From contig NZ_JALJWP010000001.1 of assembly GCF_024169245.1 (NCBI RefSeq), positions 4,961,501 to 5,025,500 of the forward strand: a DNA stretch of 64,000 bases, given 5' to 3'. Below, in pieces: positions 2,874 through 50,024 of this stretch. Both the position numbers and the translations under genes were made by a program. Origin of the DNA: Pseudomonas koreensis. GTDB lineage: Bacteria > Pseudomonadota > Gammaproteobacteria > Pseudomonadales > Pseudomonadaceae. Within the stretch, counting starts at the first letter, position 1; every line of letters begins with the position of its first letter. A model generated the notes under the pieces. That model was not told where the DNA came from and made no database searches. It saw only the letters and a list, made by a program, of their open reading frames with translations.

Positions 2874-3314
2874 ATGAAACGCCAAACCCTTCTCGGCATT
2901 GCATTCTCGGTTTTCGCAGTCAACGTTTTTGCAGCAACCCCTGTTCAGACCCTGGTCGCTGAAGGCGGCTCGGACAAGCTGATCGAAAGCCGCTTGGCTG
3001 AGGGTGGTTCTGATCGCCTGATCGAACGCCGTGTTGCCGAGGGTGGCTCTGATCGCCTGATCGAACGCCGTGTTGCCGAGGGTGGCTCTGATCGCCTGAT
3101 CGAACGCCGCGTTGCCGAAGGTGGCTCTGATCGCCTGATCGAACGCCGTGTAGCCGAAGGTGGTTCCGATCGTCTGATCGAACGCCGCGTTGCCGAGGGT
3201 GGCTCTGATCGACTGATCGAACGCCGTGTTGCCGAAGGTGGCTCTGATCGTCTGATCGAACGCCGTGTTGCCGAAGGTGGTTCCGATCGTCTGATGGAAC
3301 GCCGCGTCGCATGA
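2874..3314 (+). CDS. Exported protein of nine tandem 13-residue repeats
   Basis: 146 residues. The first 20 or so are a Sec signal peptide ending VFAATP; the rest, from residue 29, is nine head-to-tail copies of a 13-residue unit, consensus AEGGSDRLIERRV. The first copy (AEGGSDKLIESRL) and the last (RLMERRV) differ slightly. The start is the ATG after a GGAG site at 2861; a longer open frame upstream is not supported. The unit alternates a glycine/aspartate turn with a charged amphipathic strand or helix, as expected of a solenoid or fibre-like secreted protein. Similar Pseudomonas proteins carry the automatic name phage infection protein; I recall this only from annotation and do not rely on it. 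A terminator follows at 3341. Function unknown. Confidence 0.75.
   Translation: MKRQTLLGIAFSVFAVNVFAATPVQTLVAEGGSDKLIESRLAEGGSDRLIERRVAEGGSDRLIERRVAEGGSDRLIERRVAEGGSDRLIERRVAEGGSDRLIERRVAEGGSDRLIERRVAEGGSDRLIERRVAEGGSDRLMERRVA
2958..3308 (+). repeat. Nine tandem 39-bp coding repeats
   Basis: Nine copies of a 39-bp unit encode the 13-residue repeats of the preceding gene. The copies differ mostly at third codon positions (GAG/GAA, GGC/GGT, CGT/CGC) while the protein stays constant. This points to selection on the protein as well as unequal crossing-over between copies. The array is a likely site of copy-number change between strains. Confidence 0.95.
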
Positions 3315-3340
3315 TTCAATCGCTGTACCGCCACACCATG

Positions 3341-3371
3341 AAAAAGCCCGGCCTGATCAGCCGGGCTTTTT
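3341..3371 (+). terminator. Rho-independent terminator after the repeat protein
   Basis: Inverted repeat AAAAAGCCCGGC / GCCGGGCTTTTT with a 7-base loop, ending in a T run, 27 bases past the stop codon. The A run on the left arm would let it act from the other strand as well. Confidence 0.9.
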
Positions 3372-5591: not shown

Positions 5592-5826
5592 TTGATCCAC
5601 GGGCGACGTCGGAAGGCTGAGCGGAGGGATTGATCCGGGCGTGGGAGCGCAGCGACCGTCTGGCGCAGCCAGACACAGCGGAAGGAGGTGCAGCGAAGCA
5701 AACCGGAGCCGCTGCGCCCGGATCGATCCCGCAGCGAAGGAACCCGAGCCTGCGAGGGCCGAACGCAGGAGCAAGCGTTTTTTTGCTTACTTTTTTTAGG
5801 CGTTTGTAAAAAAAGTGAGTCGCCGT
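5592..5826 (+). repeat. 235-bp structured dispersed repeat, copy A
   Basis: This differs from copy B (35349-35583) at only three positions that I can find. It contains a closing stem GGGATTGATCCGGGCG (5626-5641) with CGCCCGGATCGATCCC (5715-5730), one T-G wobble; a hairpin GTCTGGC-GCA-GCCAGAC (5658-5674); an inner pair GCAGCG / CGCTGC; and a distal hairpin ACTTTTTTTA-GGCGTTTG-TAAAAAAAGT (5789-5816). It lies between the converging ends of the diguanylate cyclase and cytochrome genes. Frames open on either strand here look spurious. I do not recognise a named family. Confidence 0.85.
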
Positions 5827-5899
5827 AAGGGCGAAACCCTAAGCAGCCGTTACCGCAGCAATGGATATGCACTCAATCAGACGAGAAAGCATCGCCCGA

Positions 5900-34457: not shown

Positions 34458-34676
34458 ATGTCGAAAGAAGACAGCTTCGAAATGGAAGGCACTGTCGTCG
34501 ACACCCTGCCCAACACCATGTTTCGTGTGGAGTTGGAAAATGGGCACGTCGTAACCGCGCATATTTCCGGCAAGATGCGCAAGAACTACATTCGTATTCT
34601 TACCGGTGACAAAGTGCGCGTCGAGCTGACGCCCTATGATTTGAGCAAAGGGCGGATCACTTACCGCGCTCGTTAA
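34458..34676 (+). CDS. infA: Translation initiation factor IF-1
   Basis: 72 residues, the exact usual size, a single OB/S1 fold: [38 protein letters not shown], ending KGRITYRAR. Binds the A site of the 30S subunit during initiation. A strong terminator follows 15 bases after the stop, isolating it from the repeat-rich interval. Confidence 0.97.
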
Positions 34677-34690
34677 TCAAGTCAATACAG

Positions 34691-34719
34691 AACGCCCGGG
34701 TTATGCCGGGCGTTTTTGT
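34691..34719 (+). terminator. Terminator of infA
   Basis: AACGCCCGG / CCGGGCGTT with a six-base loop and five further Ts. Confidence 0.93.
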
Positions 34720-34725
34720 TTGTCT

Positions 34726-34763
34726 GGGGTTTGGGGTTTTGTGGGTTTTGTGGGTTTTGGGGG
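34726..34763 (+). other. G-quadruplex-type motif
   Basis: Five runs of three or more Gs separated by short T-rich loops (GGGG TTT GGGG TTTTGT GGG TTTTGT GGG TTTT GGGGG). Four runs suffice for an intramolecular quadruplex on the plus strand. It starts seven bases beyond the infA terminator. Confidence 0.75.
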
Positions 34764-34804
34764 CATATCCGTTGCTGCGGGTGCTGCCGCTGGCGGTTTC
34801 GCTT

Positions 34805-35020
34805 TTACAGCGAGTCACCTTTTCCAAACGCCGAAAAGGTAACCCAAAAGGCTTTGCCCCGGCGTTCGGCCCGCTCGCTAGGGCTCGGGGTACCTTCGTT
34901 ACGGGATCGATCCGGGCGCAGCGCCTCCGGTTTGCTTCGCTGCACCTCCTCTCGCTGTGTACGACTGCGTCGTACGGTCGCTGCGCTCCCACGCCCGGAT
35001 CGATCCCGTAACGAAGCCTG
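34805..35020 (-). repeat. Structured dispersed repeat, diverged inverted copy C
   Basis: This is a relative of copies A and B in the opposite orientation. It keeps the loop CAAACGCC inside a changed stem ACCTTTTC / GAAAAGGT (34817-34840), the hairpin GTACGAC-TGC-GTCGTAC (34959-34975) in place of GTCTGGC-TGC-GCCAGAC, and a perfect 25-bp closing stem starting CTTCGTTACGGGATCGATCC (34894-34918) paired with 34992-35016. Intervening single-stranded words (CTCCGGTTTGCT, GCTGCACCTCCT, GGTCGCTGCGCTCCCA) are conserved with A and B. Confidence 0.85.
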
Positions 35021-35058
35021 CCGAAGGGGCAAAAGGTCAAAAGCCGAAGCAAAGCAAA

Positions 35059-35106
35059 AGCCAGATCAAGAGCCAGATCAAGAGCCAGATCAAGAGCCAG
35101 ATCAAA
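35059..35106. repeat. Four tandem 12-bp units AGCCAGATCAAG
   Basis: Four copies, the last ending AAA, leading directly into a REP half-site (35101-35132). It is the same position and similar word content as the hexamer array at 5455, but with an independent repeat unit. Confidence 0.9.
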
Positions 35107-35132
35107 AGATCGCAGCCTTCGGCAGCTCCTAC
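35101..35132. repeat. Single REP half-site (GCTGCCGAAGGC family)
   Basis: ATCAAAAGATCGCAGCCTTC+GGCAGCTCCTAC, without its mirror partner; preceded by the 12-bp array. Confidence 0.85.
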
Positions 35133-35180
35133 AGTTGGATCGTGGGTCTCTGATGGAAACTGGTTGACCAGCAGGGCGCC

Positions 35181-35275
35181 ATCGCGAGCAGGCTCACTCC
35201 TGCAATTGGATCGAGTACAACCTCAAGAAACACGTCGGCTGTCAGGCCGCCTTCGCGAGCAGGCTCGCTCCCACA
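35181..35275. repeat. Two REP half-sites in the same orientation
   Basis: ATCGCGAGCAGGCTCACTCC+TGCA (35181-35204) and TTCGCGAGCAGGCTCGCTCC+CACA (35252-35275). Unlike the other pairs in the window they are direct, not inverted, so they do not form a REPIN hairpin with each other. Confidence 0.85.
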
Positions 35276-35348
35276 AAAGCAAAAAAAGCAGCGCAGCTGC
35301 CCGCGGCGAAGCCGCCCCACTCAACAATGAGCGTTAGCTCGAGTGCTT

Positions 35349-35583
35349 TTGATCCATGGGCGACGTCGGAAGGCTGAGTGGAGGGATTGATCCGGGCGTG
35401 GGAGCGCAGCGACCGTCTGGCGCAGCCAGACACAGCGGAAGGAGGTGCAGCGGAGCAAACCGGAGCCGCTGCGCCCGGATCGATCCCGCAGCGAAGGAAC
35501 CCGAGCCTGCGAGGGCCGAACGCAGGAGCAAGCGTTTTTTTGCTTACTTTTTTTAGGCGTTTGTAAAAAAAGTGAGTCGCCGT
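35349..35583 (+). repeat. 235-bp structured dispersed repeat, copy B
   Basis: This matches copy A at 5592-5826 except for three single-base differences I can find (positions 9, 31 and 105 of the element). It has the same closing stem (35383-35398 with 35472-35487), hairpin (35415-35431) and distal A/T-stem hairpin near 35546-35573. It has the same plus-strand orientation as A and the opposite orientation to its neighbour C, and lies in the converging space between infA and clpA. Confidence 0.88.
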
Positions 35584-35652
35584 CAGGCGAAACCGCCAGC
35601 CGGAGCACGGCAAAAACGGATATTCACCCAAACCCCCCAAACGACAAACAGC

Positions 35653-35676
35653 AAAAAGGCGCCCGAAGGCGCCTTT
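35653..35676 (-). terminator. Terminator of clpA
   Basis: AAAGGCGCC / GGCGCCTTT with a four-base loop. On the minus strand the stem is followed by additional Ts, 25 bases past the clpA stop. Confidence 0.88.
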
Positions 35677-35700
35677 AGCGTTACCAACAGACAACAGCCG

Positions 35701-37971
35701 TCAGGCCATTTCCGCCGTAGTTTCGAAGTCGAACGTCAACTCCCCGTCCTTGATGTCGATGTGCACCACACCGCCATGCTCGGCCAGTTCGCCAAACAGA
35801 ATCTCCTCCGCCAACGGACGCTTGATCTTGTCCTGGATCAGACGCGCCATTGGACGTGCGCCCATCGCCGAATCGTAACCACCGGCCGCCAGCCAGCTGC
35901 GCGCCGCGTCGGTAACCTCCAGCAACACACGCTTGTCTTCCAACTGCGCTTGCAGCTCGGTAAGGAACTTGTCCACCACGCTTTTGATGACCTCATGACT
36001 GAGGCGACCAAACTGGATAATGGTATCCAGCCGGTTACGGAATTCCGGCGTAAAGCTCTTCTTGATCACTTCCATCGCATCAGACGAGTGATCCTGATGG
36101 GTGAAACCGATCGAAGCCCGCGCGGCCGTTTCGGCACCGGCGTTGGTGGTCATAATCACGATCACGTTGCGGAAGTCCGCCTTGCGCCCGTTGTTATCGG
36201 TCAGCGTGCCATGGTCCATAACCTGCAACAGCAGATTGAAGACTTCCGGATGCGCCTTCTCGATTTCGTCGAGCAACAATACGCAATGTGGCTGCTTGGT
36301 GATCGCTTCGGTCAAAAGACCGCCCTGATCGAAACCGACATAGCCTGGAGGCGCACCGATCAGACGTGAAACGGTGTGACGCTCCATGTACTCGGACATG
36401 TCGAAGCGGACCAGCTCGATCCCCAGCGCTTTGGCCAGCTGTCGCGCGGCCTCGGTTTTACCGACACCGGTAGGCCCGGCGAAGAGAAACGAACCGACCG
36501 GCTTGTCAGGCGATTTGAGCCCCGCACGAGACAGTTTGATTGCAGTCGACAGCGAATCGATCGCAGCATCCTGACCGAACACCGTCAGTTTCAGGTCACG
36601 CTCAAGATTACGCAGCAGTTCCTTGTCGGAACTGGTGACGTGCTTTGGCGGAATCCGCGCGATTTTCGCGACAATGTCCTCGACCTGTGGCACTTCGATT
36701 CGCTTGACGCGCATCTCCACCGGTTGCAGACGCTGATAGGCGCCCGCCTCGTCGATCACGTCGATGGCCTTGTCCGGCATGTGCCGGTCATTGATGTAGC
36801 GCGACGCCAATTCCGCAGCGGCACGCAACGACTCATCGCTGTACTCGATGTTGTGATGCTGCTCGAAACGTCCTTTCAGACCGCGCAGGATACCGATGGT
36901 GTCTTCCACTGACGGCTCGACGACATCGACCTTCTGGAAGCGGCGCGCCAGGGCGCGATCCTTCTCGAAGATGCCACGGAATTCCTGGAACGTGGTCGAA
37001 CCGATGCAGCGAATGTCGCCAGACGACAGCAACGGCTTGAGCAGGTTGGACGCATCCATCACGCCACCGGACGCAGCACCCGCACCGATGATGGTGTGGA
37101 TCTCGTCGATGAACAGGATCGCCTGCGGACGTTTTTTCAGTTCATTGAGCAACGCCTTGAAGCGCTTCTCGAAATCACCACGATACTTGGTGCCCGCGAG
37201 CAAAGCGCCAAGATCGAGCGAATAAACAACCGCATTGGCCAGCAGATCCGGCACCTGATTATCGACGATGCGCTTGGCCAGGCCTTCGGCAATCGCGGTT
37301 TTACCCACGCCTGCTTCGCCGACCAGCAGCGGATTGTTCTTGCGCCGGCGCGCGAGAATCTGCGCGACACGCTCGACTTCCGATTCGCGGCCGACCAACG
37401 GATCGATGCGACCCTGGCGCGCGAGTTCGTTGAGGTTGCTGGCATAAGCATCCAGAGGATTGCCTGAAGAAGAAGACTCACCGCCCTCGTCGTCCTGCAT
37501 ATCTTGTTCACCTTCAGAGTGATCGCCGTGCCCCGGTACTTTGGAGATGCCGTGGGCGATGTAGTTGACGACATCGATGCGCGCAACGCTCTGCTGTTTC
37601 AGCAGGAACACTGCCTGACTCTCTTGCTCACTGAAGATGGCGACCAGCACATTGGCGCCGGTCACTTCGCGTTTGCCCGAGCTCTGTACGTGAAAAACAG
37701 CACGCTGCAGGACCCGCTGGAAACCCAGGGTTGGCTGGGTTTCGCGATCCTCGTCATGCACGGGGATCAATGGCGTGGTGGAGTCGATGAACTCCTGCAG
37801 ATCATGCTTGAGTTTGTCGAGGTTTGCGCCGCAGGCACGCAAAACGGTGGCGGCAGCCTCATTATCCAATAGGGCCAGCAGGAGATGTTCGACGGTCATG
37901 AACTCATGACGCTTCGAACGAGCCTCCTTGAAGGCTAGATTGAGGGTGACTTCGAGCTCGCGGTTTAACAT
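35701..37971 (-). CDS. clpA: ATP-dependent Clp protease ATP-binding subunit ClpA
   Basis: 756 residues: ClpS-binding N-domain (about 1-145), an acidic linker, AAA+ 1 with Walker [19 protein letters not shown]+ 2 with Walker [16 protein letters not shown], and the ClpP-docking loop region in the second module. The chaperone unfolds N-degron and SsrA-tagged proteins into ClpP. It is transcribed after clpS with a 30-base gap, as in most gamma-proteobacteria. Confidence 0.97.
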
Positions 37972-49549: not shown

Positions 49550-50024
49550 AGCACCGAAAACTGACTGATTAGTCGTATCAGACTAAAGATGTAGTGCTTG
49601 AAAAAAAGCACTACAAAACGTTTGACGGGGTAAAAAAGCGAAGGCATGATGGCCTCGCTCCCGCTAATCAGAGGCCCTGGCAAGGGCCTTCGAAGCGCCG
49701 TTCGCACCTACCCTGCGAGCCGTTTCGTGTCTGTACCGCCCACAAGGTGTGTTTGACGAGGTTGCCGACTGGAACGAAGTTGTCCCGAGGGACGGAAGCG
49801 TATTTAGGTAACCCGGCTTCACGCTGTTGTCCGTATAAAGGCCCACGACGCCCGCATGCGCCCCGCAGTCCGCCACTACCTGCTCACTTCCCCTCGAGCC
49901 CATCGTTCATCCCGTCGCCTACCCCGCCGAATCCGACTTGACCACCTAAGCTTCTGGTCAGCGAGCGCAGGAATTTTCCACCGCAGAACAACTTTTCATA
50001 AAAGACGCGACGAGGTTTATCTCC
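49550..50024. promoter_or_regulatory. Leader region before aceA with two strong hairpins
   Basis: 475 bases without a gene. It contains TGTAGTGCTT-GAAAAA-AAGCACTACA (49590-49615) and AGGCCCT-GGCA-AGGGCCT (49672-49689). The first may end the secretin-domain transcript, though it lacks a T tract on that strand. The aceA promoter must be here; glyoxylate-shunt genes are normally induced on C2 carbon sources. I see no convincing operator. Confidence 0.5.

Follow-up and report, generated by a model that had tools for sequence, protein, structure and literature searches.

A dispersed repeat element of Pseudomonas with compensated hairpins and an orientation that mostly follows the replication fork

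Introduction

What keeps a fold of several hairpins in place while its letters change, and is that fold carried by RNA or by DNA? The question is raised by an intergenic region of Pseudomonas koreensis, in which a preliminary description, made from three copies of a dispersed element, had noted two hairpins that differ in a compensatory way and had proposed that selection maintains a structured RNA or a folding, possibly mobile, DNA unit. High-copy non-coding repeats of this kind are usually dismissed as clutter; the element described here retains its plan of several helices outside its own genus as well, and obeys the replication fork in most of the genomes examined.

Results

Three copies of one element in the window

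The window, the whole 64-kb stretch of DNA that we analysed, contains three copies of one element of about 300 bp, with copy C on the plus strand and copies A and B on the minus strand (Table 1). The convergent genes infA and clpA, named by NCBIfam models TIGR00008 and TIGR02639, flank C and A, which make up an inverted pair. Copies A and B are 98% identical over 244 nt, and the arms of A and C are 85% complementary over 137 nt. Read inward from the outer end ATATCCGTT, the element consists of hairpin P1 (TTCGCC / GGCGAG type), hairpin H1, whose loop is CAAACGCC or close to it and whose stem varies in letters and length, a direct repeat of the 3′ arm of H1, the outer stem P0 (TTTGCCCC / GGGGCAAA, confined to one subtype and spanning about 165 nt), and a closing stem P4a that encloses P4b and P4c. 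The length of the A-run in the direct repeat mostly tracks the H1 stem, as judged by eye.

The compensated differences first seen between the copies are confirmed. Hairpin P4c is GTACGAC-TGC-GTCGTAC in C and GTCTGGC-TGC-GCCAGAC in A, B (5608-5868) is the same as A, and all three differing pairs are compensated. The second hairpin of the preliminary description is H1, with the same loop in C and A, and the long closing stem is present as described. The GCAGCG/CGCTGC pair proposed inside that stem is one local option, but covariation is seen in the arm formed by CAGCG and CGCTG, which is CATCG/CGATG in other copies.

Table 1. Positions of the element copies and their parts in the window
Feature	Position	Strand	Remarks
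Intergenic host region of the C/A pair	34677..35700	.	infA ends at 34676, clpA ends at 35701; in relatives holds the pair, a single copy, other repeats or little
Copy C	34765..35058	+	'type II' subtype, opposes the fork; left pair member; outer limits approximate
Outer G/T-rich tract, may be part of copy C	about 34730-34764	+	limits approximate
Hairpin P1 of copy C	34799..34813	+	TCGCT / AGCGA
Hairpin H1 of copy C	34817..34840	+	loop CAAACGCC at 34825-34832
Direct repeat of the H1 3′ arm, copy C	34844..34851	+	CCAAAAGG
P0 outer stem, 5′ strand, copy C	34853..34860	+	TTTGCCCC; partner is 35026-35033
P0 outer stem, 3′ strand, copy C	35026..35033	+	GGGGCAAA
3′ domain of copy C	34894..35016	+	three-way junction of P4a, P4b and P4c
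Closing stem P4a, copy C	34894-34918 / 34992-35016	+	25/25 complementary
Arm P4b, copy C	34919-34923 / 34953-34957	+	CAGCG with CGCTG
Apical hairpin P4c, copy C	34959-34975	+	GTACGAC-TGC-GTCGTAC
Copy A	35316..35623	-	'type I' subtype, runs with the fork; right pair member; limits approximate
Possible end hairpin of copy A	35329-35340	-	GAGCGTTAGCTC
3′ domain of copy A	35383..35487	-	P4a, P4b, and P4c at 35415-35431
Closing stem P4a, copy A	35383-35398 / 35472-35487	-	16 bp, 94% complementary
Hairpin H1 of copy A	35546..35573	-	loop CAAACGCC at 35556-35563
Copy B	5592..5876	-	type I, unpaired; on the left arm, where the minus strand is the fork-running one

The 137-nt domain of C folds 7.9 sd below dinucleotide shuffles (0/200 as good), and the domains of A and B fold 2.6 and 2.9 sd below theirs (3/200 and 0/200 as good). 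The 5′ stretch is of ordinary stability against dinucleotide shuffles (34775-34870, z -0.67; 34844-34993, z -0.31), and the support for its hairpins is therefore comparative. A candidate pseudoknot between the loop CAAACGCC and a downstream GGCGTT was rejected, as distant members do not have it (by eye).

Rfam yields a single gathering-level match in the window, the sRNA SrbA at 49667-49885 (+; 87.4 bits, gathering 69), and three weak matches on 34680-35700, none of them within the copies. The earlier view of a conserved fold in a dispersed element is supported, with no Rfam match in the window copies. Elsewhere the window holds an array of 39-nt direct repeats (2916-3349, 8 overlapping register copies). 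Chance open reading frames of 95-150 aa run across the window copies, and from these we expect that some annotated Pseudomonas 'hypothetical proteins' may fall inside the element. The P4b loop of most copies contains CACCTCCT (e.g. 34943-34950, +; complement AGGAGGTG), which matches the anti-Shine-Dalgarno core of 16S rRNA.

Copy number and distribution

A DNA search of the source genome (G000; 5,974,792 bp, one contig) identified at least 42 copies, of which 40 are nearly complete and two form a pair truncated within the 3′ domain, a count that rests on the best 40 of 68 and the best 40 of 64 first-look candidates. Fragments near 2.44 Mb (2441459-2441575) are excluded both from this count and from the alignments of the genome's own copies; the incomplete pair 2994372/2994839 is excluded from those alignments, and alignment A1 omits two of the 40 near-full-length copies because of an insert in H1. 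Small GC-rich hairpin-like inserts lie within the H1 loop of the G000 copies 3183896, 5060130, 2994372 and 2994839 and of the infA-clpA copy of G111 (L256), as if the loops tolerate inserts.

The 5′ domain, with its two hairpins, was matched in 134 of 149 Pseudomonas genomes (at most the best 32 candidates scored per genome) and the 3′ domain in 41 of the 149, with 1 to at least 147 copies per genome. Among 194 genomes sampled from the order, 28 matched the 5′ domain, including 24 from other genera; the weakest of these matches lie near E 1e-3 per genome and are possibly due to chance. Loop letters and plan are still present in other families of the order. In other genera the plan of the 3′ domain (long closing stem, inner hairpins, terminal GGGGC) is seemingly kept with largely different letters, by eye at a few loci. 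Copy C has no match among 72,556 plasmid or 50,697 phage records (E 1e-5).

At the infA-clpA site we surveyed 30 loci from the closest of 148 matching genomes. The 28 complete stretches contained both outer ends of the pair (n = 11), one end (n = 3) or neither (n = 14), often with REP-type repeats instead, and the pair is present in P. anatoliensis, one of 10 named relatives. The family has thus been gained or lost there between species. The orthologous site may hold a pair, a single copy, a collapsed pair (the palindrome of G060) or none, and hairpin types differ between relatives; even genomes with 99-100% identical infA segments have different H1 types. Exchange and deletion among copies therefore also shape the family, and the earlier verdict that the sequence is not decayed is too simple. 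Loss and exchange were seen at infA-clpA, the only site compared, and recent insertion was not.

Several relatives have other sequences in this slot. Telomere-like GGGTTT repeats lie directly outside the element in G011 (L268), where other copies have G/T-rich tracts of variable length; more than 1 kb of other DNA interrupts the left copy in G049 (L257); and BoxC-like CCCTC...GGGAGAGGG repeats occupy the same intergenic slot or lie between the pair members in G129 (L266) and L068.

Covariation and mode of change

Covariation was tested on a tree built with FastTree, against a null derived by parsimony, in a home-made substitute for R-scape. It exceeded the tree-based expectation at 7 of 23 testable structure pairs and at none of the 3653 other column pairs, all separated by more than 3 columns, which is the outcome that the preliminary description had required of its proposal. 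Divided between the two domain sets, 4/9 and 3/14 of the pairs variable on both sides reached E < 0.05, as did 0/1815 and 0/1838 of the non-structure pairs. The domain alignments were built by the model and hence lean towards its structure; identical rows were collapsed (A7, 85 of 103; A8, 58 of 62), and A5 and A6 stood outside the tree test.

The 85 distinct 5′ domains have standard pairs in 99.6% of cells and 175 two-sided changes at 9 of 13 pairs, and the 58 distinct 3′ domains have 93.7% and 183 at 13 of 28 pairs. No shuffle matched the covariation score of either set (0/500 each), and when the structure is slid along the alignment, 31 to 55% of cells can pair. Counts of further pair types are weakly above shuffles in the 5′ set (38/500 reach the count) and not above them in the 3′ set (488/500).

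Wobble pairs are rare in the 5′ domain, with G.T in 2/1061 (A7), 4/673 (A5) and 2/409 (A2) cells, and two-sided changes outnumber one-sided changes by 175:2, 112:4 and 47:2 in the same alignments. RNase P RNA of the same genus (29 distinct sequences from the best 30 of 59 loci; structure from RNAalifold) has G.U in 279/3037 cells, including pairs that are always G.U, and a two-sided to one-sided ratio of 96:94. The 3′ domain has G.T in 2/1589 cells and A.C in 81, with A.C in 13 columns and G.T in 1; A3 has 37 A.C and 1 G.T, and A6, which includes antisense matches of the near-palindromic 3′ domain, has 42 and 9. As the A.C cells lie on the given strand, which is the fork-running one, the wobbles sit on the complementary strand. 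The three 5′ alignments lean slightly the opposite way (8 G.T, 2 A.C). Judged from these pair counts, an RNA fold on the given strand is unlikely.

Mismatch rates are 8.8% in the closing stem, 0.5% in P1 and 0.3% in H1; within the 3′ domain they are 4.7% in P4c, with its 3-nt loop, and 0.7% in P4b, with its loop of about 30 nt and 22 two-sided cells.

Orientation relative to replication

With the origin set by dnaA at 1,297,480 and the terminus taken as the midpoint, every copy outside inverted pairs in the source genome (30/30) runs with the fork, on the plus strand of the right arm and the minus strand of the left. The GC skew of the element flanks is +0.040 on the right arm (19/21 stretches positive) and -0.041 on the left (1/10), and the KOPS-like word GGGNAGGG is split between strands 11:1 and 0:11 on the two arms; the arms are thus correctly assigned.

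Across 15 single-contig genomes, again with the terminus set at the midpoint, 203 of 224 copies among the matches listed run with the fork. Outside inverted pairs the listed matches are fully polarised in G111 (22/22), G049 (19/19) and G047 (16/16), as in G000, and polarity is absent among those listed for G017 (7 with, 4 against), G042 (2 with, 3 against) and G113 (0 with, 2 against). At least 9 of the 21 copies counted as against belong to inverted pairs with a partner outside the list (two each in G124, G113, G059 and G126, one in G110), and those counted as with may hide pairs too; for other genomes the pair and polarity counts cover the best-scoring matches (in G126, the best 22 of at least 147). 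The quarter of either arm nearest the origin contains 0 of the 42 copies in the source genome, and about 5 of 294 among the matches listed lie within 12% of the origin, in a by-eye count of rounded values.

Two rules based on neighbouring genes were rejected. The 5′ gene points towards the element in 29 of 40 called cases and away in 11, with 2 without a call (crude ORF caller, some low scores), which is not strict enough for gene orientation to explain the polarity. Terminator-like sites in the 150-nt 5′ flank are enriched but not general, with 14/42 in the sense direction, 2/42 on the other strand and 12/400 in random stretches (tandem copies share flanks).

The REP word GATCGCAGCCTTCGGCAGCTCC, counted in flanks of up to 1.5 kb around the copies of the source genome, likewise favours one strand on each arm (right, 2 plus/15 minus; left, 13/4); the sample was taken mainly beside the element and is hence not independent of it.

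Inverted pairs and subtypes

Copies of the element are found alone, in tandem and in inverted pairs. Among the matches listed, 44 of 52 neighbours within 1 kb are inverted with their outer ends out (+,-), 8 are on the same strand and 0 have the arrangement (-,+). This pair rule and the replication polarity go beyond the preliminary description. In the source genome the fork-opposing member has P0 in 5 of 6 pairs, the sixth pair being incomplete. We compared 86 copies, all from complete genomes, for a helix of 7 bp or more at the place of P0: 16 of the 23 opposing copies have one, as do 3 of the 63 that run with the fork, where two are unrelated helices and one is from G113. As a rule beyond the clade of the source genome the subtype assignment fails: both members have P0 in G017 and G113, G005 and G042 deviate, and one opposing copy of G110 has only 5 bp. 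As both members carry a GCCCC/GGGGC stem in G017 and G113, the subtype split looks like a derived feature of this clade.

Candidate enzymes

The suggested kinship with REPs and their RAYT transposases was not borne out: presence of Y1_Tnp does not track the 5′ domain, with no match in 13 of 134 carriers (e.g. G015, G060, G074) and in 2 of 15 non-carriers. RVT_1 has no match in the source genome, and a retroelement using a resident enzyme is therefore without support here. No transposase gene was seen in the element copies read, and comparison of filled and unfilled infA-clpA sites defined no target-site duplication, monomer terminal repeats or parent transposon.

Discussion

A replication-coupled, non-autonomous DNA element is favoured by the fork-set orientation together with the nearly wobble-free hairpins, and a fold kept while its letters change, in a polar arrangement, suggests that the element acts or multiplies at the level of DNA, where the replication machinery is at work. 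The earlier choice between structured RNA and folding DNA thus leans to DNA, given 5′ wobbles so much rarer than in RNase P RNA. Our preferred reading, which we hold tentatively and at slightly less than even weight, is a MITE-like element tied to replication and folded in its single-stranded DNA form; both its mobility and its enzyme are things we infer. The hairpins would be single-stranded DNA folded while exposed during replication, where an enzyme, host-encoded or now lost, would recognise them and copy or move the element, and copying or moving at the fork would fix its orientation. A pair would be a composite of a fork-running copy and an opposing copy specialised in this clade, and gene conversion between copies would then swap whole hairpin types. 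Against the DNA reading counts the strand of the 3′-domain wobbles, which is opposite to that predicted for an IS608-like folded lagging-strand template. Also against it are the failure to find a transposase that tracks the element, a target-site duplication or a recent insertion, and the three genomes whose listed matches show no polarity. A broader proposal, possible but held with less confidence, is an order-wide class of replication-polarised folding DNA, comprising a fork-running single form and a composite with a specialised opposing partner, that would be either mobile through single-stranded DNA, by an enzyme unrelated to known Y1, or a polar chromosomal mark.

Chief among the alternatives is a polar chromosomal function, in which selection would let only fork-facing sites survive, for fork pausing, relief between convergent genes, or gyrase or condensin binding, with the opposing copy tuned to the other direction; we consider it rather unlikely, and the present data do not separate insertion bias from selection. 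The complete polarity outside inverted pairs among the matches listed in G000, G111, G049 and G047 is in keeping with such a site, and so are the distinct subtype in the opposing position and the presence of both pair ends in 11 of 28 complete infA-clpA stretches. The scarcity of copies near the origin (0/42 in the origin-nearest arm quarters of G000; about 5/294 within 12% among the matches listed) also fits, but would follow as well from the purging of insertions close to conserved core genes; the available text of PMC2718517 puts repeat deserts at about 40% of SBW25. No single copy can be needed, since 15 of 149 genomes have no 5′-domain match and 14 of 28 relatives have neither end at infA-clpA, and a copy number spanning 1 to at least 147 likewise argues against a required site.

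Neutral repeat turnover, in which template switching would keep palindromes perfect and gene conversion would spread hairpin types, producing two-sided changes without selection, seems to us improbable. It would sit well with the few intermediates, with the different hairpin types in orthologous copies of close relatives, with the collapsed palindrome of G060 and with the higher mismatch rate of the wide closing stem than of P1 and H1. Mismatch does not simply follow loop size, however, as P4c and P4b show; P0 spans about 165 nt, the loop letters and plan are still found in other families of the order, and both the polarity and the 44:0 pair rule would be left unexplained. A structured RNA with a selected fold, either an sRNA or an RNA mobile unit, we judge decidedly improbable, even with significant covariation and 3′-domain wobbles on the complementary strand in its favour. 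The two-sided to one-sided ratios of the 5′ hairpins are far from that of RNase P RNA, the window copies have no Rfam match, the source genome has no RVT_1 match, and an RNA made from the wobble strand would be transcribed against the fork at every one of the 30 unpaired copies in that genome. Covariation, a trait of structured RNA, is thus present here with wobbles that are rare in the 5′ domain and one-stranded in the 3′ domain. Compensatory changes in bacterial repeats can mark DNA rather than RNA, and the wobble count offers a simple discriminator. The element is a tractable case for asking whether replication-coupled processing of single strands shapes bacterial non-coding DNA, and by which enzyme.

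Comparison with known systems

Topical and sequence-word searches of the literature returned no account of such a fold, polarity or pair rule for such an element; the papers compared below are cited from excerpts. REPs are about 20-60 bp and RAYT-linked (GI-GIII of P. fluorescens SBW25; PMC3116915), and one end of their short palindrome has a GTAG or CGTC tag (PMC3733652). Like REPINs, for which compensatory changes have been reported, the element is dispersed and forms inverted doublets with hairpins (PMC3116915), yet 30 of the 42 copies in the source genome are not in inverted pairs. Unlike REPs, it is about 300 bp long, has several different hairpins, pairs two subtypes in its own clade and does not track Y1, and its conserved outer end, ATATCCGTT..., is without a GTAG or CGTC tag (by eye). 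The nearest hint of polarity comes from the tandem REP arrays of SBW25, whose placement switches from forward to reverse between the two sides of the chromosome (PMC3116915). BRE, a chromosomal repeat of about 90 bp, usually intergenic and found in several beta-proteobacterial genera, is likewise dispersed, but its orientations do not follow the fork (PMC3110155).

The BoxC / PIT intrastrand-triplex motif (PMC4666352) shows the same succession as H1 with its direct repeat, in which a pyrimidine tract is followed by its complement and then by a third tract, of purines; the third tract of the element, unlike that of BoxC / PIT, is a direct and not a mirror repeat outside the A-run, and the G/C-rich TM core, as given in the excerpt, has 0 exact matches in the window. 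We do not favour a triplex, given the same absence and because, although the third-tract length mostly tracks the stem, an alternative pairing fits equally.

Orientation is set by the fork in IS200/IS605 and Tn7, which insert via single-stranded DNA or a clamp at forks (PMC5371812), and IS608 and ISDra2 of the IS200/IS605 family have DNA hairpins near their ends and an orientation that follows replication (PMC5371812, PMC6006769). The element is like IS200/IS605 in its hairpins and fork-following orientation (30/30 in G000; 203/224 among the matches listed), and unlike them in its inverted pairs, in a 3′ wobble strand opposite to expectation, and in having neither a visible transposase gene nor Y1_Tnp tracking.

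The intergenic repeats R0-R200 of P. fluorescens (Silby et al. 2009; PMC2718517) have a tail-to-tail bias and similar hosts. The excerpted text mentions predicted hairpins for these families, and neither compensatory changes nor replication polarity. R200 (320 bp), R26 (352 bp) and R178 (101 bp, with an internal 11-bp inverted repeat) fit by size, and the element may be one of these three (PMC2718517).
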